Source: Jannaschia faecimaris (GTDB lineage: Bacteria; Pseudomonadota; Alphaproteobacteria; Rhodobacterales; Rhodobacteraceae). From it: a stretch of DNA of 64,000 nt. Each line of letters opens with the position of its first letter. Positions within the stretch are counted from its first letter, which is position 1. This document shows, piece by piece, positions 39,459 to 52,485 of this stretch. The notes under the pieces are model-generated. The model saw only the letters and a list, made by a program, of their open reading frames with translations. It made no database searches and was not told the DNA's origin. The stretch spans positions 1-64,000 of the forward strand of contig NZ_FNPX01000007.1 in NCBI RefSeq assembly GCF_900107415.1, given 5' to 3'. Both the position numbers and the translations under genes were made by a program.

Positions 39459-40692
39459 CTTTTCGGCATCGGAAAAATCCCTTTCGGTCCCGAAGCGGTC
39501 GGAGTTGGGTTTCAGATTCGGCTCTGGATCGAATTTCTTGTCATGTGATTGGTAGGCTGCGATGCTGGTGCGGCAAACGAAGTTGGCAATGAGGCGCGAG
39601 GACAATTGCAAGTTATGCGGGGAGGATTGTTTGATCCTGCATTGCCCCGTGCCCGAATGCTCCTGATGTACTCGCGTGAAGTCACACGACTTGGCACTAC
39701 TCCGGGTCGGGACGCGACGGCTCCGAAGTCCCACTTTCCCCGGCAGAACCCCTTTGCCGGTCCGCGACTGGATGGATGGCCGCGCCAGCAGTACGCGACA
39801 CAGGCAGTGTCTAATTCTTTGCTGATCCGGAGGCAGACACTGCGGGTCGCTTCCCACCTCCTGTTCAACTTTGTGCGAGGAAGAGCCAAGACCGGGCCCT
39901 GAAAGGCCGTTGAAGACTGGTGCATATAGAGCCGAGATGCGCTTTCAAAAAACCCTGAAACGTGTTGGACAGTCCACTCTTGGAGGGGCAACTCGAACTT
40001 CGTCTGGTCACGTCAGTACTCCGTAACAATTCTTGTTGTGGCATGTGCCCTAAGACGGAGCTTATGATACTTGGGGCCTGGCTTGGGCATGATCCGGATG
40101 ACAGGCTGCGCGAATTCGACCAACTGCGCTCGCTTGGATGTGAACCTGCCCGATGGTCCGGCGTTTCTCCGCTTCGGCGCCTTTTTCGATGGGACCCACG
40201 CCGATGGTCTGGCCAGCCCGGCAGTTCAGTCCGCCCGATCTGGTTCGCGGGTGGCGGTATGCCTGCCGCAGAGCGGGTCCCATCGGGCCAAGGATCACGG
40301 CTTCCGTCCGCCACGTCTTTTGTGCCGCGCTAAAAGTGGACACTGCGCCTGTAACTGGATCAGCTTGAAACTGAGAAATCTCGTGACCTATCGTTTGGTC
40401 GTCTTCGCCTCCCAGGCAAGCGACTGGACCTGATCCGCTGTGAGCGTTGGGCATATGCACGAGCCATACGGTCCGTAGCCCCCAACCCTCGCTGAGCGCG
40501 ACTGGCGAAAAGCGCACAACCAGTTCCGCGCGCCTCCTCTCTTTGATTTGGGCCCGGGCTCGTTTCCGCATGTTCGGAGTAACTCGACCAACGCCGAAAG
40601 CCAAAGGTTGACGCGATGAACCAAGACCTCCTGAAGTGTACCTAATTGATCTCTTGATCGGCGGCCAGATCAGTGCTGCGCGAACTGTCATG
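39459..40692. other. Gene-poor region at the left edge of the chemotaxis cluster
   Basis: Over 1.2 kb without a convincing gene. Several frames of 60-240 codons are open on both strands, but none has a good start, a recognised motif or codon bias like the neighbours. Possible decayed mobile or coding DNA; I see no inverted-repeat pair or transposase motif that would prove it. A T/A-rich small stem (TTTTC / GAAAA) follows frcA. Confidence 0.6.
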
Positions 40693-42387
40693 TTATGCGG
40701 CTGCATTTTTTTCAAAGAGCTCATGGTCATCAATATCTTCGGAATCCTCCATGTTGCCATCACCGATATCAAAGAATGAGATGACATCGTTCAGTTGCAA
40801 AGACTGTCCAGCTAGCATGCGAGAAGTCTCTGCGCTTTCGTTCGCTGAAGTCGCATTTTGCTGAATGACCCGGTCAAGTTCGCGGATTGCCTGGTTAATC
40901 TGATCCGCCCCCACATTTTGTTCTCGCGTTGAAGCAGAAATCTCGGCCACCAAGTCCGCGGTTCGCTGGATGTTCGGGACCAACGTTTGCAGCATGCGCC
41001 CGGCTTCCCCTGAGACTTCGATGGTTTCACCGGAAAGTGACCCGATCTCGGCGGCAGCATCCTGGCTGCGTTCTGCAAGCTTGCGAACTTCGGAAGCTAC
41101 GACCGCGAAGCCCCGACCGTGTTGTCCCGCCCGGGCGGCCTCTACAGCCGCATTCAGAGCGAGGAGGTCCGTTTGCCGTGCAATTTCCTGGATCACGTTG
41201 ATTTTTTCGGCGATCGTCCGCATGGCGCGTACCGCGCGCTCGACAGCCTCGCCCGAAACACGAGCATCGCTCGCGGACTGATTTGCAATCTTCTCTGTCT
41301 GCCCGGCATTATCGGCGGCCTGCCGAATATTTGCGGTCATCTCCTCGATGGACGCCGATGCTTCCTCTGCTGCTGCCGCCTGCTCAGTAGAGCCTGCTGA
41401 AAGCTGCGCGGCTGTGCGGGACATCAATTCTGCCGTTTCCGATACGCTCTCGGCACTGCGCGCCGCATTTGCGATTACCCTGCGGATGCGGGACGCCATG
41501 TCGCGAAGGGCAATACCAAGGCGATCGGATTCTGACCGCGGTTCGACCGATACAGTCAAGTCACCTGATGATATCTGCTCTGCCGCCAGGCTCATTGCGC
41601 GCAAATCCGACGTCATGGCCGCCATCTCACGAAGCAGAGCCCCGATTTCGTCGTTTCGGCGAGCCTCGATTTCGATGTCGAGATTTCCCCGTGCAACCTC
41701 GCGGACGACGCGAACGGCCTCGTCAAGGGCGGCACCGGCAGATCGGGCCGCAACAAATGTGATGATCGACGCGAGCGCAATTGCCACAAGGGCCAAGAAA
41801 CCCTTGTGTTTCGCATACGCCCACCATGCTTTAGCCAGCCCGCTACTGCTGACACCAATATAGAGAATCCCTTCGACCTCGCCCGTTCGTTTTCCATATA
41901 TTGGGAAAAACTCCGTCTTGTAGTCGACTCCAAGAACGGTTGCCTCGCCTTCAAAAATCTCACCGGCACTGACCGCTGCATGAATTTCGCTTGTCTTGTC
42001 CAGGGCCGTTCCAATTGCTCGTTCACCGTCGACGGTGAGAATGTTGGTTGACCGGCGGACAAATTCACCCTGTTCCCTGTCAAGGACGAAGACAGTAGAT
42101 TTTTCGCCGGTTATCGCGCCGATTTCGTCCATCAATTCGTGGTTCAGAAACATTGGCGGAAGGGTCCATTCGATCCGTTCCAAATTCCCATCGTCACCGA
42201 TTGTCAAACTGACCGAGTCTTTTCCGAGTTCGATAACCGAGGCTGCCACTCGCATACTGCCATGCAGTTTTTCCGTAGTCGCCTCTGTTCGTTTTTCCCA
42301 TAATTCAGTCCCGATAATCAAACCGGCCGTGCCGAACGCGACAGCTATAGTGAGAACTATCGCCTTATACTTTAACGAAAACGCCAT
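40693..42387 (-). CDS. Methyl-accepting chemotaxis protein, membrane type with Cache-like sensor
   Basis: A 564-residue chemoreceptor. TM1 at about residues 8-29, periplasmic sensor of about 150 residues with Cache-type features ([38 protein letters not shown]), TM2 at about 185-207, HAMP ([20 protein letters not shown]), then signalling domain with the tip [21 protein letters not shown] and [13 protein letters not shown]. The tail is acidic ([14 protein letters not shown]). Start at 42387 after AGAGGTCC. It is divergent from the che operon and supplies a likely input. Ligand unknown. Confidence 0.9.
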
Positions 42388-42563
42388 TCCACGGACCTCT
42401 TTCCATGACATACTAGCCGACCGTTTAGACGGCGGGATGGGCGAGTTGTGCGGGTATTATCCTAAGATTGAGTGAAGCGAGGCGGAAAAAAATCGTTCCG
42501 CAATAAGAATATGGAAAGGTTTGCCCTTTAGACCGGCTTGGAGACTTGGACGGGAAGAGCCAC

Positions 42564-42875
42564 ATGACAGACCGCGGACAATCCGGCTGCACGCTTGCAG
42601 AAGAAGCATCGAACCCGCACCGGGTATTCGATCTCAGCAGAGATCTTTCCTTAGACGGCGCGACAGAGTTGCTCCCATTGCTTGAAGCTTGGATATCAGA
42701 AGCCCCAAAGGGTGCACATCTGGAGTTCCGACTTCCGTCGCTCGTCAGTTCAGTGGCCGTGCAATTGGCCGTCGCTGCGCAGCGCTCAGCAATTGAACGT
42801 GGCTTGGCGGCACGGGTTACGGTTTCCGACCCGGTGGGGCCGCGGCTTTTCACTGAGAGGGAACCCGCAGCATGA
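42564..42875 (+). CDS. STAS-like domain protein of the chemotaxis operon
   Basis: A 103-residue protein with the size, alpha/beta pattern and location of STAS-domain proteins that begin some alphaproteobacterial che operons (VFDLSRDLSLDGATELLPLLE, then LPSLVSSVAVQLAVAAQRSA). The phospho-acceptor Ser region is diverged, so the STAS call is moderate. Start MTDRGQSG at 42564 after GGAAGAG. Overlaps cheA by ATGA (42872-42875). Possibly a scaffold or phospho-switch in the array. Confidence 0.6.
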   Translation: MTDRGQSGCTLAEEASNPHRVFDLSRDLSLDGATELLPLLEAWISEAPKGAHLEFRLPSLVSSVAVQLAVAAQRSAIERGLAARVTVSDPVGPRLFTEREPAA

Positions 42876-44857
42876 ACGATTTCCCAACCGACACCTTTGT
42901 GGCGGAAACGCTTGAAGGGCTGGAGGCGATCGAAAGCCTACTACTTCGGTTCGAGGACTCACCGAACGCTGCCCTGGTGGATGATCTGTTTCGGACGATG
43001 CACACGATCAAGGGGTCGGGTGCGATGTTTGGATACGACGCGCTTGCGCGCTTCACGCACCTTTTCGAAAATGCATTCGAGCTTGTACGCGGTGGTGAAC
43101 TGCCGCTTGACCGTGTCCTCATCGATTTGTCACTCGCGGCACGTGACCACATGGCGGAGCTTCTAAACCACAACGGCGATCCAGCCCGGCTAGTTGAAAT
43201 CGAGACGTCGGACAGTGCAAGAAATCTTGAACGCCAGATCGCAGGATTCGTGAAGTCAGGGGCCCCTGGCCCCGAGCGGGGACATCCTGTCGCACCGGTA
43301 AAGCATTTTGCGTCAAGCCGAACCGTGAGAATTCGATACGCGCCAGCGAGTGAAAGTTTTAGATTTGGCGCTCGTCCAAACCTTCTCCTCGAAGAATTGT
43401 ACAGCTTGGGCAATGTCGACTTGAGTTGCGACGCAACAGCTGTTCCCTGTCTGGCGAAGATTGATCCGCAGGCAAGTTATCTTGTCTGGAACGTTCAGCT
43501 GAAGACCGATCGTCTTCTCGAAGATATTAGGGAAATCTTCGTTTTTGTGGATGAAGCAGAGTTCTCGATCACTGACGAAAATGGCATACTTTTAGGACCC
43601 GTTATGTCGGGCAAGGATGAGAACGTTGTGGGCGATGCCCTGCCAATTGAACGGGCCGCCTCCGACAAATCGAGAGCGAACGTTCCGTCGTTGCGAATTC
43701 CGGCTACCCGTCTGGATGACCTCATGGACCAACTCGGGGAACTCGTGATCGCGCAGGCCAAGCTGGCGAGTCTGGCGGTTGGATCGTCTGACCCTGCTCT
43801 GAACTCCGTCTCCGAAGAGGTCAATCGCCTGATTGCCGGGTTGCGCGAATCTGCACTCTCAATGCGGATGCTTCCCATAGAAATAGCATTTGGAAAATTC
43901 CGCCGGATCGTACGGTCCCTTGCAGATGATCTAGGTAAGAATATACGCCTTGTCACTGAAGGCGGACAGACAGAACTTGACAAGAACGTTATTGACGGGC
44001 TGACAGAACCTCTGGTTCACATGATCCGCAACGCGATAGATCATGGGATTGAGTGTAGGGCCGAGCGTATCGCTGCGGGTAAGTCCGAAGAGGCGACAGT
44101 TGCATTGGTTGCGCGCCAGTCCGGAGGCGAAGTCCTGATCAGTGTCAGTGACGACGGTGGGGGTCTTAACGAGAGTACGATCCGAACGCGTGCTGTTGAG
44201 CGCGGGCTTATCGGACCCGATGAGATACTTGCGCCAGAAGAGCTTCACCAGATGATCTTCGAACCTGCGTTCTCTACGGCACAAACCGTATCGAACGTAT
44301 CGGGCCGCGGCGTTGGTATGGATGCGGTTCGAAAGGTCGTTGCCGATTTGCGAGGTGCAATCGATATTCGCACAGGTTTGGGTGTCGGGACGTCGATTAC
44401 GCTACGTCTGCCGGTGACCTTGGCGATCATTGACGGGCTCCTGGTCAGGGTAGGCGACGGCGTTTTCGTTGTCCCGCTCTCGGCGGTCCATGAATGCGTT
44501 GAATTGAACAATCTCGACTATGACCGGGCAAGCGGAAGGACACTCCTGAAAATTCGGGATGAACTCGTTCCGTTTGTCAAACTTGACCGCGCCTTTGGCA
44601 AGCAGTCAGAGGATGGGACAAGACGACGTGTCGTGATCGTCAATGATCAGCGGCTCCGGGTCGGCCTCGTTGTGGATGACGTGATTGGACAGCATCAAAC
44701 CGTTATCAAGACCTTCAGTCGGTTCCACCGCAATATTCCGGGGTTCGCTGGCAGCACGATTCTAGGCGATGGCCAGGTTGCTCTCATCCTCGACCCGCCG
44801 GCGTTGCTTCGGTCGATCGCCGAAGACCAAGTCGCCGGCGTGTTCGATGCTGCTTGA
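42872..44857 (+). CDS. cheA: Chemotaxis histidine kinase CheA
   Basis: Autophosphorylating kinase of the receptor array, 661 residues. P1/HPt with MHTIKGSGAMF (phospho-His44), a P2-like middle domain at about 150-235 (IRYAPASESFRFG), P3 dimerisation helices (LDDLMDQLGELVIAQ), P4 ATPase with N-box LVHMIRNAIDHGIE (Asn387), G1 SVSDDGGGL and G2 GRGVGMDAVRKV, and the CheW-like P5 from about 515. All catalytic elements are present. Overlaps the STAS-like gene, and cheW follows 17 bp later. Target regulators: CheY and CheB of this cluster. Confidence 0.95.
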   Translation: MNDFPTDTFVAETLEGLEAIESLLLRFEDSPNAALVDDLFRTMHTIKGSGAMFGYDALARFTHLFENAFELVRGGELPLDRVLIDLSLAARDHMAELLNHNGDPARLVEIETSDSARNLERQIAGFVKSGAPGPERGHPVAPVKHFASSRTVRIRYAPASESFRFGARPNLLLEELYSLGNVDLSCDATAVPCLAKIDPQASYLVWNVQLKTDRLLEDIREIFVFVDEAEFSITDENGILLGPVMSGKDENVVGDALPIERAASDKSRANVPSLRIPATRLDDLMDQLGELVIAQAKLASLAVGSSDPALNSVSEEVNRLIAGLRESALSMRMLPIEIAFGKFRRIVRSLADDLGKNIRLVTEGGQTELDKNVIDGLTEPLVHMIRNAIDHGIECRAERIAAGKSEEATVALVARQSGGEVLISVSDDGGGLNESTIRTRAVERGLIGPDEILAPEELHQMIFEPAFSTAQTVSNVSGRGVGMDAVRKVVADLRGAIDIRTGLGVGTSITLRLPVTLAIIDGLLVRVGDGVFVVPLSAVHECVELNNLDYDRASGRTLLKIRDELVPFVKLDRAFGKQSEDGTRRRVVIVNDQRLRVGLVVDDVIGQHQTVIKTFSRFHRNIPGFAGSTILGDGQVALILDPPALLRSIAEDQVAGVFDAA

Positions 44858-44874
44858 TTGAAAGAAGCAAAGCC

Positions 44875-45375
44875 ATGTTTCCAGCCCGTAGCGAATCTGC
44901 CACGCCAAAAGAAAACCGAAACGAGGCCCTAACTGAACGAAGCAAGATGCTCCTTACATTTCGTCTAAACGAAGAGCGATTCGCCCTTCGTGTCGATTAC
45001 GTAAATGAGATTCTTGACCCCATCCAACAGACTCCGGTGCCCCGTGCATCGGTCTATGTTCCGGCTTTAATTAATGTGCGCGGTTCGATCGTACCACTGT
45101 TCGATATTCGCCAGCGTCTGGGAATTTCCAGATCGGAGACTGTAGCCGCCGCACGGACCGTTGTACTCGACCTTGATCTCGGAGGAGAACCTACGCGGCT
45201 CGCAATCCCAGTGGATGCGGTCGAGAATGTGCTTGAGAGCGATCCAACTTCAATTGTACCGATCCCGGATTTGGGAACGCTCTGGCCGCCGGAACTAATT
45301 GAGGGTGTCCTACATCATGATGATGACATCGTCGTATTGTTCGATGCCGTGGCCTTGTTCTCAGTCGAGACCTAA
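44875..45375 (+). CDS. cheW: Chemotaxis coupling protein CheW (first copy)
   Basis: SH3-like coupling protein linking receptors and CheA, 166 residues. Seen: LTFRLNEERFALRVDYVNEILD, VPALINVRGSIVPLFDIRQRLG (the conserved NxRGxxxPxxD block) and VDAVENVLESD. Start at 44875; a TTG at 44854 overlapping the cheA stop is also possible. A second, more diverged cheW follows after the receptor gene. Confidence 0.92.
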   Translation: MFPARSESATPKENRNEALTERSKMLLTFRLNEERFALRVDYVNEILDPIQQTPVPRASVYVPALINVRGSIVPLFDIRQRLGISRSETVAAARTVVLDLDLGGEPTRLAIPVDAVENVLESDPTSIVPIPDLGTLWPPELIEGVLHHDDDIVVLFDAVALFSVET

Positions 45376-45414
45376 GCCGTCAGCTTCGCGTGTGCCTCTT
45401 AAAGGGAACTTGAA

Positions 45415-47676
45415 ATGCGCATCTCGATCGAAAAAAAGGCTCTGATTTTCTTCATGGGAATCGGGGCGGCGTTTGGCCTTGCAGCCCTCTTGGTATTCCA
45501 GAATTTTGAGCGGCAAGCGGTCCAATGGTCCAAGGCGGCGGAACAGGAAGAGGTCGCTCTAACTACAAGTTTTGAACTGTTGACAGCAGTCGCTGCAGCT
45601 GCCGTCGCTTACGAAAGTATAATTCGCGCCGCGACAGATGCGGATGTCGAGGATCTCGCGATCCAAATCGAGCATCAATCAGCCACTATGATGGAGGCCA
45701 TAAGCAAACTGCAGGGCCTGGCGAGGCCGGGCGGTAGGGACCAAAGCGACGTAATGTTTAACAAGGTTCACAGCTTTGCTGAAGCTCTCCGGCAGGCCGT
45801 TGTACAAGCTCGGAAAAGTTCCGCCCTCCGAGTCGACTTTAGTTCGGCGAGTCGCGCGGCTTGGGACGAGGCTGATGCGGCGCTTGTCACGCTAGTTGAA
45901 GATGCCGGCTCGCTTGAAGAGGGTCTCCGTAATCGGATTTTCACACTAGGGACAGCAATCAGCCATTTCATTGACAGTGCTAGAAATATCGAAAGGGCAA
46001 TGTTGAAATCTACCGACCCCGAGACGAATGATGCGCTCGCAACTGCCCACTCAGACATCCTTCACGAATTGACACTTTCAATCTCTCGCTTGAATAGAAT
46101 GGTTTCGCTGGTAGATCCGAATGCGGCGAGGGTTCTCTTACCCATTTTTCGCGAAATACCAGACGCGAGCAGACGGTTTGTTAGAATTTTAGGTGCGAAT
46201 ACCACGATGATGCTGGATGCAGATATAGTTTCCGCGCATCACGAGGCGCTTGCATTAATTGATCAGATGTCGCGTGCAGTCACTGCCGCTATCGCCAAAG
46301 AGCGGGAGGCCAGGAATAAAGGCACCGGGAGAGCTATAAGCGCCGTGACGGCGCTTGCTGGCGTTGCGATGAGCATGGGTCTCGGTGCCGCGCTCTGGAT
46401 TATCGTGCGCGTCACTCGAGGCCTTGCCCGCGCGATTGCCGTTAGCAGAGACTTGGCCGACGGCAACGTGTCCAGTCCTAAAGACTATGCGGAATTTCGG
46501 CGTGGCGAGATTGGAATACTTTTAGAAGAACTCTTCCGAGTGCGGTCGAATCTAAAGCAGGCGGCTGCCATTGCTTCAAGCATTACCGCTGGCGATCTCT
46601 CCGTTGAGCACAGCCCTCGAAATTCTGATGACACGCTTGGACTGGCGCTTCGGGATATGTTGGACAAACTACGTCCCGCCACAAAGAACTCTGTCCAATG
46701 TTCACATAGAATGATTGAGGGGGCAGAAAGGCTTTTGACTTTAACAAGGCAGTTGAAAGAAGATACTGATTGGAAGGTGGCCGTAATTCAGGATGCTTCT
46801 GGTTCATGTGCTGAACTGATGGATGAAAATCTTATACCGAATGAAAATGGCAGACGAAATCAGCAGGCCATAAAACAGTTGTCCTCCCGGTTCCAAGAGG
46901 GCGAGCAGGCAATGGGCGACGCGGTGATTGCAATTCGAGAAATGGCACGTAAAATCGACTCCTTCAAAGAGGTCGCACGTCAAACTGACCTATTGGCCCT
47001 GAACGCAGCAGTGGAAGCGGCGCGGGCCGGTGAGCACGGTTTCGGTTTTGCAGTAGTCGCTTCTGAAGTGCGAAAATTGGCAGAACGCAGTCAAGTTTCC
47101 GCGTCCGAGATATCTGGGCTGGCGCAGAGTACCGTAGGACTTGGCGAGCGAGCCAATGAAATGCTAGCGGAACTTATCCCTGACATCCAACGAACCGCAG
47201 ATCTCGCCTTGGGGCTTTCGGCTTCGGCCTCTGAACGGGCGGTGGGCGCAGGCCAAGTCAAAGAAGCGATCGCTAAACTTGCCCAGGAAACCCAGACCCG
47301 CGCGAATTCTACGGACGAAAGCGTGGCGGCGGCAGTGTATCTTGTGACGCAGGCCAAAGCGCTTCGGAATATGCTTGGGGAGTTCGATCCTGGAGTTAAG
47401 GGCGAAATTGCCGTTTCGGGTGATGCCGTCAGCCCTGCCCGGCAGGTTAGAGAAAAGCCGCTGAACCGGCCGCGCAAATCTGTTTTAGGAGAATCTAAAA
47501 CTGCGCCGTCGCAGATCATAAATGCAAAAGTCTCGGAATCTAAAGTCCTCGATAACGCAACCAATCGTAATCAATTGCGTTCTGGCCTGCGCGCGGAGGA
47601 CGCAACGGTCATCGGTGGTGTGGCTCTGGATCTCGGTCTGGAAGTTTCTGACAGCGATTTTGAACGCTACGTTTGA
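45415..47676 (+). CDS. Methyl-accepting chemotaxis protein with diverged signalling arm
   Basis: A 753-residue receptor-like protein, two TM segments (about 10-28 and 300-325), a long helical periplasmic domain between them (about 30-300), a HAMP region ([18 protein letters not shown]) and a signalling part with the tip [21 protein letters not shown] and [14 protein letters not shown]. The descending helix before the tip is poor in the usual Glu/Gln methylation pattern and contains irregular stretches ([18 protein letters not shown]), so adaptation may differ. AAAGGGAAC precedes the ATG. GC content is low (29 of 60 in 46201-46260 by hand count). Confidence 0.85.
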
Positions 47677-47687
47677 AGCAAGCGCCG

Positions 47688-48302
47688 ATGCCTAGCGATT
47701 TGCCAATCAAGAACAGGATGATGAACATGCAGCGTCAAGCAACTGCGTTGAAAAACGCATTGATACCATGGGATCCGCTCTCGGATATCGGCCAAGTCGA
47801 AGGCATAAATCCGATTATCTCAGAGGGGGAGGCGCGTGCCTTTCTGATCTTTAAGCTAAGTGGTCATTGGCTTGCATGTGACGTTGCTCAGGTGAGGGAA
47901 ATCTTGGCCGAACAGACGGTGACCCCGTTGCCGAAGACTCCTTCTGAAATAGAGGGCATGATCGATGTCCGCGGCAGCGGGATTGCAGTCGTTGATTTGG
48001 CCCGCCATTTGGGTTTCCCCCCGGCGGGGCGGGGGACTGTGACCCGAATTATCGTTTTCGAGGCGAACACGGATAAAGGATCCCCGATCCCGATTGGCGT
48101 TCGCACAGACGAGGTGCGGGACGTTCTGGTGTTGGGCGCTGGCGAGATTGAAATGGCCCCGCAAACGTTGGGATCATGGGATCGTAGAGCGGTGATGGGC
48201 GTGGCGCGGATCGACAACAAGATTGTGATCGTGATGGACATGCGGGCCGTGTTTGAAAACGCCTCCCCATCGATCGACGCGGACTTGTTCGACTTTGTAT
48301 GA
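47688..48302 (+). CDS. cheW: Chemotaxis coupling protein CheW (second copy)
   Basis: A 204-residue CheW-like protein, longer than usual (about 160) because of an N-terminal extension of about 40 residues. CheW core: FLIFKLSGHWLACDVAQVREIL, EGMIDVRGSGIAVVDLARHLG and VRTDEVRDVLVLG. NxRG is replaced by DVRG. Starts at 47673 (TTG, overlapping the receptor stop), 47688 or 47718 are possible. Overlaps cheR (ATGA at 48299-48302). Confidence 0.85.
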   Translation: MPSDLPIKNRMMNMQRQATALKNALIPWDPLSDIGQVEGINPIISEGEARAFLIFKLSGHWLACDVAQVREILAEQTVTPLPKTPSEIEGMIDVRGSGIAVVDLARHLGFPPAGRGTVTRIIVFEANTDKGSPIPIGVRTDEVRDVLVLGAGEIEMAPQTLGSWDRRAVMGVARIDNKIVIVMDMRAVFENASPSIDADLFDFV

Positions 48303-49192
48303 GTGGGAAAGCGCAAAGGGAGTCGCCATTGCGGCCCGGCGACGTGTCAACGTCCGACATCAATTATCCAACAGAAAGAGAAGCACGGGTCATTGTTGAA
48401 GTCGCGCATCGTGCCGCTGGGCTGCACCTTGATCCGCGCCGAATTGAGTTCCTTCACCAGCGTCTTGCCCGGCAGGTGGCCACTATGGGCCAGACAAAAT
48501 TTTCCAGCTATTGCAGGCTTTTGGAAATGTCCGGGATGGGGGGGGCAGAGATCCGGTCTTTCGTCGAGGCGCTGACAACCCATACGACCTCATTTTTTCG
48601 GGAGCAGCCACACTTCGATTGGCTCGGTCGGACCGGCTGGGCTGATCTGATCGAGCGCGGGGCGGGGCGAGACTGGCCTCTCGTGGTTTGGAGCGCAGCC
48701 TGCTCAAGTGGACAGGAACTCTACAGCGCGATGATTTCCCTCATTGAGCACTCGGACGAGATTGGCACGCCTGTTCGTATGGAAGGGCTCGGAACCGATA
48801 TCTCTACCCGAATCCTGCAGAACGCGCGGACTGCGGTCTATCCACGGGCAGATGTCCGCGGTTTGGATGAGGCGCGGCACCGGCGGTTTCTGATGCGTGC
48901 CAAGGACGGATCCGATCGATTTCGCCTCACGCCAGAGTTACGCAATCTTTGCCGTTGGTCTTACGCCAACCTGACGAATTTGGTCAGTGACGGCCCGCCG
49001 CAAGCTGATGTCATAATGCTGCGCAACGTTTTGATCTATTTCGATCCGTCGACGCAGGTTCAGGTTGTGGATGCTCTGGTCCGACGATTGCTACCCGGCG
49101 GCATCCTATTGACAGGGCATACAGAATCTCTGCGAAGCAGGCATAGCGGATTGCTTGCGATCGGATCGTCGATCTATCGAAAGGAATTCTGA
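48299..49192 (+). CDS. cheR: Chemotaxis methyltransferase CheR
   Basis: SAM-dependent methyltransferase adding methyl groups to receptor glutamates. 297 residues: N-terminal helical domain ([17 protein letters not shown]), [18 protein letters not shown] motif [18 protein letters not shown] and [10 protein letters not shown]. No fused TPR. Overlaps the cheW stop and ends 4 bp before cheB; together they form the adaptation pair. No CheD is in the cluster. Confidence 0.93.
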
Positions 49193-49196
49193 AGCC

Positions 49197-50258
49197 ATGG
49201 GGCGTATTAAAGTCTTGATCGTGGATGACAGTGCCGCAGTTCGCGAAGCAATGTCAGCCCTTGTGCGAAGCGCTCCGGATCTGGAGGTCATGGCGACGGC
49301 GGCTGACCCAATCCGGGCCGCCGAGTTAATCCGTAAGCAGGTGCCGGACGTCATTACACTTGATGTGGAAATGCCGCGAATGGATGGGATCACATTTTTG
49401 CGCCGCCTGATGAGCCAGTACCCGATCCCTGTCTTGATGTGTTCGTCACTGGTAGAGCCGAATTCTCAGACACTGCACGAAGCTTTGGCCGCAGGTGCGG
49501 TCGATGTCATCTGCAAGCCGCAGTTGGGCGTCAAGGGGTTCCTGAATGAAAGCCGGATCGAGATTTGCGATGCGATCCGTGCCGCGGCCAGTGCGCGTCA
49601 AGTTCGTGTTCCTTCTGTGAAGGCGCAGCCGCGACATTCCCCCGATGATGTTCTTGCCGCACCTGGTCGCTATGCGATGACAAAGACAACCGAAAAGGTC
49701 GTAGCGGTCGGCGCTTCCACAGGTGGAACGGAAGCATTGCGGTTTCTTCTTGAGTCGATGCCGCTGAATTCCCCTCCGATCGTGATTGTCCAGCATATGC
49801 CAGAGGCTTTTACGCGCGCGTTTGCGAAACGGCTCGACAGTGTTTGCCAGATCACTGTCAAGGAGGCCGAAACGGGCGATCGGCTCCTGCGGGGGCAGGC
49901 CTTGATCGCACCCGGCGGACACCACCTCATCGTTACACGGCACGGGGCCCAATATCAGGTGGAGGTCCGCGATGGGCCGCTGGTCTCTCGCCATCGGCCG
50001 TCAGTTGACGTTCTTTTTCGATCTGTTGCGCGGGCCGCGGGATCGAACGCGGTGGGTGTTATCATGACGGGAATGGGCGATGACGGGGCCATCGGACTTG
50101 GAGAAATGCACCAAGCTGGAGCGTGCACCCTAGGTCAGGACGAAGCGACCTCGGTTGTCTATGGTATGCCCCGCGTTGCATTCGAGCGCGGGGCCGTAGA
50201 TAAGCAGCTGCCGCTTGATGGGCTCCCCGCCGGTATTTTGCGCGCCGCCGGCCCCTGA
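49197..50258 (+). CDS. cheB: Chemotaxis response regulator protein-glutamate methylesterase CheB
   Basis: A 353-residue CheB: receiver domain ([10 protein letters not shown], phospho-Asp56 in [13 protein letters not shown]), linker, and methylesterase domain with catalytic Ser174 (GASTGG), His200 (VQHMP) and Asp296 (MTGMGDDG). Activated by CheA phosphorylation to remove methyl groups. Start at 49197. Ends 25 bp before the convergent cheY. Confidence 0.95.
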
Positions 50259-50283
50259 CAGGGGTGTCAACAGCGCGTCGCGC

Positions 50284-50649
50284 CTAGCCCAGAAGCTTCC
50301 GGGTCACTGCAATAAGTTTGTTGGCGTCAAAGGGCTTGTTTATCCATCCGGTTGCCCCGGCAGCTTTGCTTTGGGCCTTCATTTCCGGCGCGCTTTCGGT
50401 CGTGAGCAGGACGATTGGCGTCCCGTCACCGATCTTGTCCGCGCGAACCTTTGTAATGAAAGTCAGTCCATCCATAATCGGCATGTTGAGGTCCGTAATC
50501 ACGAGGTCGGGCTTTTGATCGCGCATCCGGTCATAGCCTTCCGCGCCGTTTTCTGCCCCGATCACCCGAAATCCTTCGGGCTCAAGCGTGAATGCGACCA
50601 TGTCTCGGACGGCCTTGCTGTCGTCGATGGTAAGAATTGTTTTTGCCAT
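50284..50649 (-). CDS. cheY: Single-domain response regulator CheY
   Basis: A 121-residue receiver: acidic pocket TIDDSKAVRD (Asp9, Asp10), phospho-Asp53 (ITDLNMPIMDG), Thr83/84 and Lys105 (INKPFDA). Diffusible output regulator that in flagellated bacteria binds FliM. It is transcribed against cheB and away from the 548-residue receptor-like protein at 50839, whose tail may bind it. No motor genes in the window, so the target is unknown. Confidence 0.95.
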   Translation of the reverse strand: MAKTILTIDDSKAVRDMVAFTLEPEGFRVIGAENGAEGYDRMRDQKPDLVITDLNMPIMDGLTFITKVRADKIGDGTPIVLLTTESAPEMKAQSKAAGATGWINKPFDANKLIAVTRKLLG

Positions 50650-50838
50650 TTGCTTTCCCGCTGCCGGTGGAATGCGCGCCGAAGGCGCAGTTCAGTTGCT
50701 CTCCACGACCTACATCGATTTGATGAATAAAGGGTGGAGACCGTAGTTGCCGCCCCACCGGGATAAAGACCGATTTTTAGCGTGTTCTTAAGACCTGAAG
50801 GGCAGAAGGGGCTCATACCTCGCTGCCTTGGAGTTTCA

Positions 50839-52485
50839 ATGTCCTCATCGCTTGCCCAATTCGACCCGTCGGCACAGTCCTACGCTGGAAATGGGCTGAC
50901 GCAGGCAATGGTCGGTGAGGGCATCGCTGCATTTTCCGAGATTACGACCGGGCTGATGGAAATCCGAACGTTGCAAGCGAAGATGACGGATAATCTCGCG
51001 GCCTTCTCGACACTTGTCAGGCAGGGGACTGAAGACGATGGTGCCGGTGCCGAAGACCAGATCAAGGAGGTCGAGGCCCGCATGACAGGAGTAATTCGGG
51101 CGCTCAAAGACATCGTCGAGGGAAGTCGGAGTGCCAAGGATCGCCGAGACGCGATGGAAGCGGAGCGGAGCCTTCAGATGATCCTGCAAGTCAGTCGAAC
51201 CCTTGGTCCCGTGATAACGCTGGCTCGTACGATCTCGGCGTCGGTCAAGACTGGCCGGTTTGAGGTTTACCTAGCTGATCTCGGCGAGATTGCGGATCGA
51301 ATTGAAACGGTTGTCGGTGCTGTTGTTGACGAACTCTCGACTTTGGACCGACGGCGTGGACGTGTTGAAAACAGCTGCGACGCCGCAGCTGGGGGGCTGC
51401 AGGGGTCTCTGCCGTTCATGTCGCAACAACGTGCCGAGATAGCAAAGCTGAGTGCGACAGAAATCGATCTCGCCCGTGATATCGATTTGCGGGCGGCGGC
51501 GCTGTCTCAACAATGTGGCGTACACTTAAAGGCATTTATCGTTGTCATCCAGTTCTCTGATCGAATGGCCCAACGGTTGGATCATCTCAAGCAGATTTGC
51601 GACTGTAATCTTCCGGGGCTGAATCGGCTTCGGCGAGGTCAAGCAAGTGATATCGCGAGTGACATTCGTGATACCCGGGCCGAACTTAGGGCGATCATAG
51701 AAGGGCTTACAACTGCGGCCAGAGGGAGTGCGGACCTGTTCTCTTCGGGGGAGATTGCCGGAACCATTGAACAGAGCATGAACCGGCAAGCTGACATGAT
51801 AGACACGATAGGCGAACGCCTTGCGGCAACGGAACTAGCATTTCAGGATGCCAGGCTAGACGTGAAGGCCCTTGCGTTGTCAGATGCGGCGGTCACCCGT
51901 GGCCTTGATAGCATCAAGAGCGCATCTCGCGATATTCGGACTGTCAGTATCAACTCCGCTCTGATGGCGTCTCAATCGGGCACCACTGCAAAGGCTCAAG
52001 TCGTTCTGTCCGCAGAGGTTCAGGAGATCGCGAAGAACTCCGTTCGGGCCACGATCGGCGGGAGTGCTGCCCTCGAACGCCTGACGTCGCGGAGCATCCG
52101 TAGACAGGAAGCATTTCTTGCGCAGGGCGAGGCTCTCGCTCTTTCCATGGAAAACATTCGGAGCGGGCGGTCCGATTGTGGTAGACGGCTGACTGTCTTG
52201 TTCGATCTTCAAGAAAAGGCCGGCGAGGAAACCCGCGTCCTTCTCGGTAAGCTTTCCGCAGTCGTGGAAGATACAACCCGGCTCAATGTGATCTTGGCCG
52301 AACTCGATGCGCTCGCGGCGCTTCCGGACGACGATGCTCCGCCGGCTGAGGACCTGATTGACTGGGCTTGGGCGCTTTATACGATGGACCAAGAGCGTGC
52401 CGTTCACGCGGCGCTCTACAGCACACCGGAAGGGCATTCTTCATCGGCACCCGAGGGCGATGACATCGATGATCTTCTATTCTAG
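50839..52485 (+). CDS. Soluble receptor-like protein with CheZ-like motif and CheY-docking-like tail
   Basis: A 548-residue, largely helical protein without signal or transmembrane segments; not assignable to a named family by me. Three things can be seen. (1) QFSDRMAQRLDHL at 238-250, where F239-x-D241-x3-Q245 has the same spacing as the CheZ catalytic F-Q-D-L-T-G-Q. (2) A degenerate receptor hairpin at about 365-401 (IRTVSINSALMASQS, then LSAEVQEIAKNSVRAT). (3) An acidic C-terminal tail EGDDIDDLLF preceded by a linker, similar to CheZ and FliM CheY-binding peptides. The upstream neighbour is cheY, divergent. A CheY phosphatase or sink fused to a receptor-like scaffold is a hypothesis. Start at 50839 after CTTGGAG. 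Confidence 0.6.
   Translation: MSSSLAQFDPSAQSYAGNGLTQAMVGEGIAAFSEITTGLMEIRTLQAKMTDNLAAFSTLVRQGTEDDGAGAEDQIKEVEARMTGVIRALKDIVEGSRSAKDRRDAMEAERSLQMILQVSRTLGPVITLARTISASVKTGRFEVYLADLGEIADRIETVVGAVVDELSTLDRRRGRVENSCDAAAGGLQGSLPFMSQQRAEIAKLSATEIDLARDIDLRAAALSQQCGVHLKAFIVVIQFSDRMAQRLDHLKQICDCNLPGLNRLRRGQASDIASDIRDTRAELRAIIEGLTTAARGSADLFSSGEIAGTIEQSMNRQADMIDTIGERLAATELAFQDARLDVKALALSDAAVTRGLDSIKSASRDIRTVSINSALMASQSGTTAKAQVVLSAEVQEIAKNSVRATIGGSAALERLTSRSIRRQEAFLAQGEALALSMENIRSGRSDCGRRLTVLFDLQEKAGEETRVLLGKLSAVVEDTTRLNVILAELDALAALPDDDAPPAEDLIDWAWALYTMDQERAVHAALYSTPEGHSSSAPEGDDIDDLLF

Follow-up and report, generated by a model that had tools for sequence, protein, structure and literature searches.

The window, by which we mean the whole 64,000-nucleotide stretch analysed here, carries a chemotaxis locus in which a cheA-cheW-mcp-cheW-cheR-cheB run and a cheY gene on the opposite strand are followed by a gene encoding a 548-residue protein (Table 1), whose reading frame opens with an ATG at position 50839 and closes with a TAG at 52483-52485. 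An earlier note on this DNA had described the protein as carrying a CheZ-type motif at residues 238-250, ending in EGDDIDDLLF and lacking a membrane segment; motif and tail were confirmed on the open reading frame, and the highest 19-residue hydropathy mean (1.39) likewise gave no indication of a membrane segment. The CheY encoded next to it, its likely substrate, retains the equivalents of D57, N59, T87, E89 and K109, with tryptophan at the Y106 position, and we take these five conserved residues to be those expected of a CheZ substrate. The GC content of the chemotaxis stretch (positions 40000-52000) is 0.54-0.58, against 0.60-0.66 in the rest of the window, and the protein family is patchy within the genus (5 of 20 genomes, the source genome included), features that together hint at an acquired or old genomic island.

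Table 1. Genes of the chemotaxis locus in the window and segments of the 548-residue protein.
Feature	Position	Strand	Basis or remark
cheA (Hpt, dimerisation, HATPase, CheW)	42872..44857	+	
cheW (first)	44854..45375	+	true start within ORF uncertain
methyl-accepting chemotaxis protein, 753 aa	45415..47676	+	PF00015, E 4e-25
cheW (second)	47673..48302	+	
cheR	48299..49192	+	
cheB	49197..50258	+	
cheY, 121 aa, divergent neighbour, likely substrate	50284..50649	-	
Divergent intergenic region between cheY and the family gene, 189 bp	50650..50838	.	same divergent pair in relatives
Soluble 548-aa protein, predicted CheY-P phosphatase on a receptor scaffold	50839..52485	+	ORF, hydropathy, homologues
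Receptor-like half 1, residues ~1-263, motif helix at its end	50839..51627	+	hhalign with short-family profile; boundary approximate
CheZ-type motif QFSDRMAQRLDHL, residues 238-250	51550..51588	+	alignment A3, alignment with CheZ
Receptor-like half 2, residues ~264-500, degenerate hairpin around N372	51628..52338	+	hhalign; boundary approximate
Conserved box YTMDQERAVH	52378..52407	+	Y514, E519, R520 and H523 invariant in A3
Acidic-hydrophobic C-terminal tail EGDDIDDLLF, CheY-docking-like	52453..52482	+	CheZ-tail profile, link to motif

Pfam and NCBIfam scans of the protein, as well as a sequence search of the PDB, returned nothing significant. At E<=1, Pfam gave no match to the chemoreceptor signalling domain (PF00015), to HAMP or to the CheC/CheX/FliY families, and CheZ (PF04344) was not among the matches; NCBIfam WXG100 gave a weak match (E 0.15). 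Receptors without a membrane anchor exist, and the lack of an anchor or of HAMP is not decisive. PF04344 had no match at E<=10 in the source genome either, and an ordinary CheZ identity was rejected on the absence of this family from both the protein and its genome.

Homologues and the conserved D-x3-Q pair

A single-sequence search over 60 genomes matched one congener (E 6e-4), a two-sequence profile accounted for the five matching genomes among the 20 of the genus, and a five-sequence profile reached 30 of 295 genomes of the bacterial family at E<=1e-3, a large share of these matches being weak. Searches of plasmids by tblastn, with the 548-residue protein and also with one relative, yielded nothing useful, and none of the 55 stretches that fitted the pattern in a single-protein scan of contigs was confirmed. 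Using profile score (E<1e-15) with no motif filter, we assembled an alignment of the 548-residue protein and 19 homologues, hereafter A3, whose members share 13-29% identity with it. Across these 20 sequences nine columns are invariant: Q238, D241, Q245, R246, N372, Y514, E519, R520 and H523. D241 and Q245 are identical in 20 of 20 members of a set chosen without the motif, and in an alignment of the N-terminal half (A5, first 274 residues) Q238, D241, Q245 and R246 are the sole invariant columns. A second set (A6) of 22 sequences, comprising the 548-residue protein and 21 of 23 loci from a contig scan whose patterns included the motif (L081 and L086 being left out as near duplicates), keeps D and Q in 22 of 22. 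The pair that the earlier note had singled out beforehand, and whose lack of conservation would have spoken against its proposal, is thus conserved in both sets and among the few invariant positions of A3.

The bare pattern F-x-D-x3-Q is found seven times in 292 Che and flagellar ORFs that are neither receptors nor CheZ, or 0.04 times per 548 residues, so that at this length its presence proves nothing alone; the extended form QF-x-D-x3-QR has no match in the same 292 ORFs. What speaks against a chance likeness of the short motif, and led us to reject it, is its invariance in homologues picked by profile score.

Across the class, matches of the full-length A3 profile were mostly confined to the receptor part, and for this reason the N-terminal half was used in the class search. 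The A5 profile matched 42 of 385 class genomes at E<=1e-3, and many of the better matches proved to be a second, shorter protein. This short form, represented by 17 distinct motif-bearing members of 353-535 residues, runs from a receptor hairpin (intact in most) through QFQDxxxQR to an acidic tail of the type ..IELF, with [IV]-[ED]-L-F at the end in 15 of the 17. Its members were kept by the motif, so that conservation of the motif within the short form holds by construction and is not evidence; 26 further long-form ORFs (21 without duplicates) were also motif-filtered, and the 20 sequences of A3 constitute the unfiltered set. In the long form, which includes the 548-residue protein, two receptor-like halves are present, with the motif after the first and the tail at the end. 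The degenerate receptor hairpin that had been noticed in the sequence at the outset was borne out, and is accompanied by a second receptor-like half.

PF00015, the chemoreceptor signalling domain, fits all six short-form members scanned (E 1e-16 to 1e-30), and for three long-form relatives it gave only sub-threshold matches (E 6e-6 to 2e-5). For 15 of the 17 members of the short form, 115 residues separate the motif Asp from the tip Asn that precedes it, and an N-A-[RK] tip 115 residues ahead of the motif was recognised by eye in 5 of 41 long members. In hhalign comparisons, the short-form profile aligned with long-form half 1 (98.7%, E 2e-16) as well as with half 2 (99.1%, E 5e-19), the two halves aligned with each other (94.9%, E 4e-8; an alternative register, of the kind usual for coiled coils, reached 54%), and ordinary receptors aligned with half 2 (98.1%, E 1e-13). 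Because each half of the long form aligns with the short form, a tandem duplication seems the best reading of the long protein, with the motif retained in half 1 and the tail placed behind half 2. Within half 2 the tip asparagine, N372, is kept in 20 of 20 and 22 of 22 sequences, and at position 376, which corresponds to the receptor-tip glutamate, Glu does not occur in any sequence of either set (0 of 20, 0 of 22). We take this glutamate to be the trimer and CheW contact residue of receptors; because it is absent, ordinary coupling of the long form to CheA and CheW appears unlikely. The long form departs from chemoreceptors in the loss of the tip glutamate, and the 548-residue protein further in giving no PF00015 match and having no predicted membrane segment. 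As invariant as the D/Q pair in the long form is the box YTMxxERxVH; similar boxes occur in some short-form members, and members outside the class show YVMxxQRRxH.

The C-terminal tail and its link to the motif

Scored against a profile of 25 CheZ tails, EGDDIDDLLF reaches 20.6, as high as genuine CheZ tails; the tail of E. coli CheZ, itself in the profile, scores 15.1. Values of at least 6 were obtained for 24 of 68 family ORFs and also for 13 of 105 motif-less receptors, and close CheZ-type tails are a minority in the family, many relatives having looser ones. The association of tail and motif was counted by a tail rule fixed beforehand, in a pool of ORFs that the searches had enriched for the motif and left unselected for the tail. 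The 173 receptor-like ORFs divide into 63 with motif and tail, 5 with the motif without the tail, none with the tail without the motif, and 105 with neither (104 of them complete), so that the tail is present in 63 of 68 motif-bearing ORFs and in 0 of 104 complete motif-less ones. Since related sequences are not independent, the ORFs were also grouped at 50% identity, which left 46, 5, 0 and 49 in the same four classes. Elsewhere, three of 317 other Che and flagellar ORFs passed the rule, two of them being CheZ.

A further check used a DNA pattern of the short-form motif alone on 349 genomes of the phylum, 29 of which matched (a reversed control pattern matched 5 of 349). Of the 30 places found, 22 are out of frame or in unrelated ORFs and eight lie in frame in family-type ORFs; seven of these ORFs match receptors and one is a contig-edge fragment, one was known from earlier searches, and six come from outside the class. 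All eight end in I-x-[LF]-F. The putative CheY-docking tail to which the earlier note drew attention is thus linked to the motif across the family. It is the motif and the docking-like tail together that set the family apart from ordinary receptors.

Two further observations concern C-termini of this type. A second receptor in the window (40693-42411, minus strand, 572 aa) has an acidic C-terminus partly like the CheZ tail, and the motif is absent from it. The alphaproteobacterial CheZ tails collected here (L123-L147, SQxDIDALL) closely resemble the FliM N-terminal peptide. A search for the docking peptide on the source genome's own FliM found no PF02154 match anywhere in the genome; FlhA, FlhB, FliI, FliF, FliN and FliP were found, the flagellar region lying on contig C12 around 442000-480000, and FliM may be divergent or missing. 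A PilT search gave two matches, both below the cut-off.

A tail that accompanies the motif across the family would also suit a non-catalytic docking protein or sink for CheY-P, in which the tail binds, the scaffold localises or buffers, and D and Q merely form a binding surface, with the YTM..ER.VH box as a further conserved surface. Such a protein, however, needs no invariance of exactly the two catalytic residues of CheZ in a CheZ-like helix context, and we consider it unlikely.

Likeness to CheZ and to ordinary receptors

For comparison with CheZ we collected 26 sequences, namely 25 loci from 115 genomes of the class and E. coli CheZ; in these the motif is mostly [AS]CxFQDITGQRxxKVV and the tail mostly SQxDIDALL. 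Against this set hhalign returned 88.1% (E 3e-6) for the short form, 55.8% (E 1e-4) for long-form half 1 and 37.4% (E 3.5e-4) for the whole long form. The controls gave 3.2% for ordinary receptors and 1.0% for long-form half 2 against CheZ, and 1.2% (short form) and 10.5% (long form) against reversed CheZ; the whole long form therefore stands only moderately above its reversed control, at 37.4% versus 10.5%. The register places D on D and Q on Q of CheZ (27-row CheZ alignment, one row spurious). When about 20 motif residues were masked, hhalign to CheZ dropped to 2.2% and 1.6%, and since masking the motif abolishes the signal, full-length CheZ homology was not supported. At the level of these profiles, the likeness to CheZ is restricted to the segment of the catalytic helix, with the short form showing it most clearly.

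PF04344 was not among the matches at E<=1 of nine relatives of the 548-residue protein, NCBIfam Phos_CheZ matched one short-form relative weakly (E 0.006), and the short-form relative L220 matched a CheZ model built from the collected sequences (E 2e-6). The HHpred-type comparison that the earlier note had proposed yielded profile similarity at the catalytic helix, together with no PF04344 match and no similarity beyond about 20 residues. Sequence features in common with CheZ (PF04344, e.g. that of Azorhizobium caulinodans) are the D-x3-Q pair, set in F-[Q/S]-D-x-x-x-Q-R on a predicted solvent-exposed side of a helix, and a C-terminal tail of the type D-x-[IV]-D-x-L-L. The family differs from CheZ in its receptor-like scaffold (ORFs of 353 to ~730 aa, against 187-362 aa for the collected CheZ ORFs), in the two receptor-like halves of the long form, in the YTM..ER.VH box and in the lack of similarity outside the motif.

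The exposure of the pair was assessed from heptad phase. Measured from the hydrophobic face, D and Q lie at 113/165 deg in the long form (n=41), 100/151 deg in the short form (n=17) and 107/158 deg in CheZ (n=26), with a significant 3.5-residue periodicity in all three (p 0.0010, 0.0038 and 0.0008, respectively) that is not significant in any of them at period 3.6. By this measure D and Q would face solvent in the long form, in the short form and in CheZ. D241 and Q245, whose burial had been raised beforehand as a concern, are thus placed on a solvent-facing side at angles near those of CheZ, a trait that they have in common with the corresponding receptor element: the Q-x2-D-x3-Q-Q element of ordinary receptors has a heptad phase of 91/142 deg (n=57). 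With the receptors' element so similar, an exposed D-x3-Q is necessary, not sufficient, for a CheZ-like role.

This similarity also speaks for regarding the motif as a structural relic of the receptors' own Q-x2-D-x3-Q-Q, free of catalysis, in a degenerate receptor that modulates the array. The halves of the long form are receptor-like, and hhalign aligns the D-x3-Q-Q element of ordinary receptors with the family motif, across a 22-residue gap. Yet the spacing from tip to motif is 115 residues in 15 of the 17 members of the short form, whereas it is 93 in ordinary receptors (the 13 of 66 in which it could be measured); ordinary receptors fail to match CheZ, as the 3.2% above records, and none of the 104 complete ones has the tail; and the Arg at +5 and, mostly, the Phe at -2 are CheZ-like, not receptor-like. 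We rank the relic behind a docking protein or sink, as improbable.

Genomic setting and proposed role

The genomic setting of relatives was surveyed for 65 distinct family genes, all motif-bearing, on 70 stretches from which the window was excluded. A core che gene is present in the stretch for 56 of the 65, within 500 bp for 52, and nearest to the family gene is cheY in 23 cases and cheB in 27; the remaining nine, two of which lie at contig starts, lack a core che gene in the sequence read. When the 70 stretches were searched with a CheZ profile, no CheZ gene emerged, and the only match was the family protein L220. Of the 20 stretches that the searches in genus and family had supplied, the gene is divergent from cheY in 11, follows cheB in five and has no che genes around it in four. 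The family gene therefore sits in che loci, and such a neighbourhood would fit a plain receptor too. In relatives such as L151-L155 cheY heads a cheA..cheB operon divergent from the family gene; in the window, by contrast, cheY is a solitary minus-strand gene flanked by cheB and the family gene. On the Methylobacterium plasmid pMOC3, the family gene encodes MQFQDRAKQR and the tail DLDGIDLF and points away from a STAS gene and a response-regulator gene. The response-regulator and family genes have a STAS-domain gene between them both on the Shinella plasmid p2 (L239 8257-10674) and on pMOC3 (L240 4783-7026), and STAS gene, response regulator and family gene perhaps form a mobile module.

The frequency of cheB as nearest core che gene (27 of 65) might suggest an adaptation or array-assembly accessory that binds CheB, CheR, CheD or CheA instead of CheY, but cheY is nearest in 23 of 65 and motif and tail resemble the CheY-binding parts of CheZ, which makes such an accessory very improbable.

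The expectation, stated in the earlier note, that CheZ would be missing from this group stood for the present genome and fell for the class, PF04344 being present in 43 of 115 sampled class genomes. Several genomes hold CheZ plus a short-form member (e.g. G036, G353, G370 and G395), and because they carry both, the family is not a simple genome-level replacement of CheZ.

Taken together, the invariant, exposed D-x3-Q in a CheZ-like helix, the tail, the receptor scaffold and the che locus lead us to propose that the 548-residue protein uses a chemoreceptor scaffold to act as a CheY-P phosphatase in the manner of CheZ, a reading to which we assign a probability of roughly 0.6. The proposal of a receptor-scaffold CheY-P phosphatase or sink made at the outset is thus favoured by the D/Q pair, tail, exposure, scaffold and locus, whereas the restriction of the CheZ likeness to about 20 residues, the 37% versus 10.5% of the long form and the receptors' own D-x3-Q weigh against it. 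The protein would work like CheZ, and by profile it is no CheZ.

In the proposed mechanism, the tail would catch CheY-P at the surface that also binds the CheZ and FliM peptides, whereupon Asp241 and Gln245 would insert into the active site of CheY and accelerate hydrolysis, as D165 and Q169 do in Azorhizobium CheZ; in the accessible part of a report on that protein, the authors call the two residues critical for phosphatase activity (PMC7750401). The receptor-like coiled coil would place the phosphatase at or near the signalling array. Most short-form members, with an apparently intact tip, could sit in the array, and the long 548-residue protein, with both hairpins degenerate, would more likely be a soluble or loosely attached off-switch.

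Extending the phosphatase reading beyond the locus, we tentatively suggest, with somewhat less than even odds, an undescribed class of off-switches: chemoreceptor-derived CheY-P phosphatases across Proteobacteria, in which the short form would bear the motif on an intact hairpin and could be in the array, the long form would be a tandem duplication that left the array, and a receptor of this kind may be the ancestor of CheZ or have its catalytic helix in common with it. In the open-access literature, outside which most subscription papers lie, we came across no account of receptor-like proteins that combine a CheZ motif with a docking tail. The CheC/CheX/FliY phosphatases serve the same purpose, CheY-P removal, and differ in fold family and motif. 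The nearest published precedent that we found appears to be CheT of Sinorhizobium meliloti, a chemotaxis protein unlike known ones in sequence and with a DXXXQ motif, which, according to the accessible text of the report, speeds the dephosphorylation of one CheY (PMC12654446). CheT has the DXXXQ in common with the present family and is set apart by its description, which, as far as that text goes, is not of a receptor-like protein (PMC12654446).

How the CheY-P signal is ended in bacteria without CheZ, CheC or CheX is an unsettled question; according to the accessible part of one survey, among 871 genomes whose single CheA bears a CheY-like domain, 811 lack known chemosensory phosphatases (PMC10782961). 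If the family members are phosphatases, they would represent an added off-switch in Rhodobacteraceae and other Proteobacteria, would mean that signal termination can be built into receptor-type proteins, and would offer a testable idea on the origin of the CheZ catalytic helix. A phosphatase role would also account for proteins now annotated as receptors, as hypothetical or as type VII secretion targets: the public annotations of the homologues read 'chemotaxis protein', 'methyl-accepting chemotaxis protein', 'hypothetical protein' and 'type VII secretion target'; this last label, given to the family member at L239 8950-10674, looks like a misannotation.
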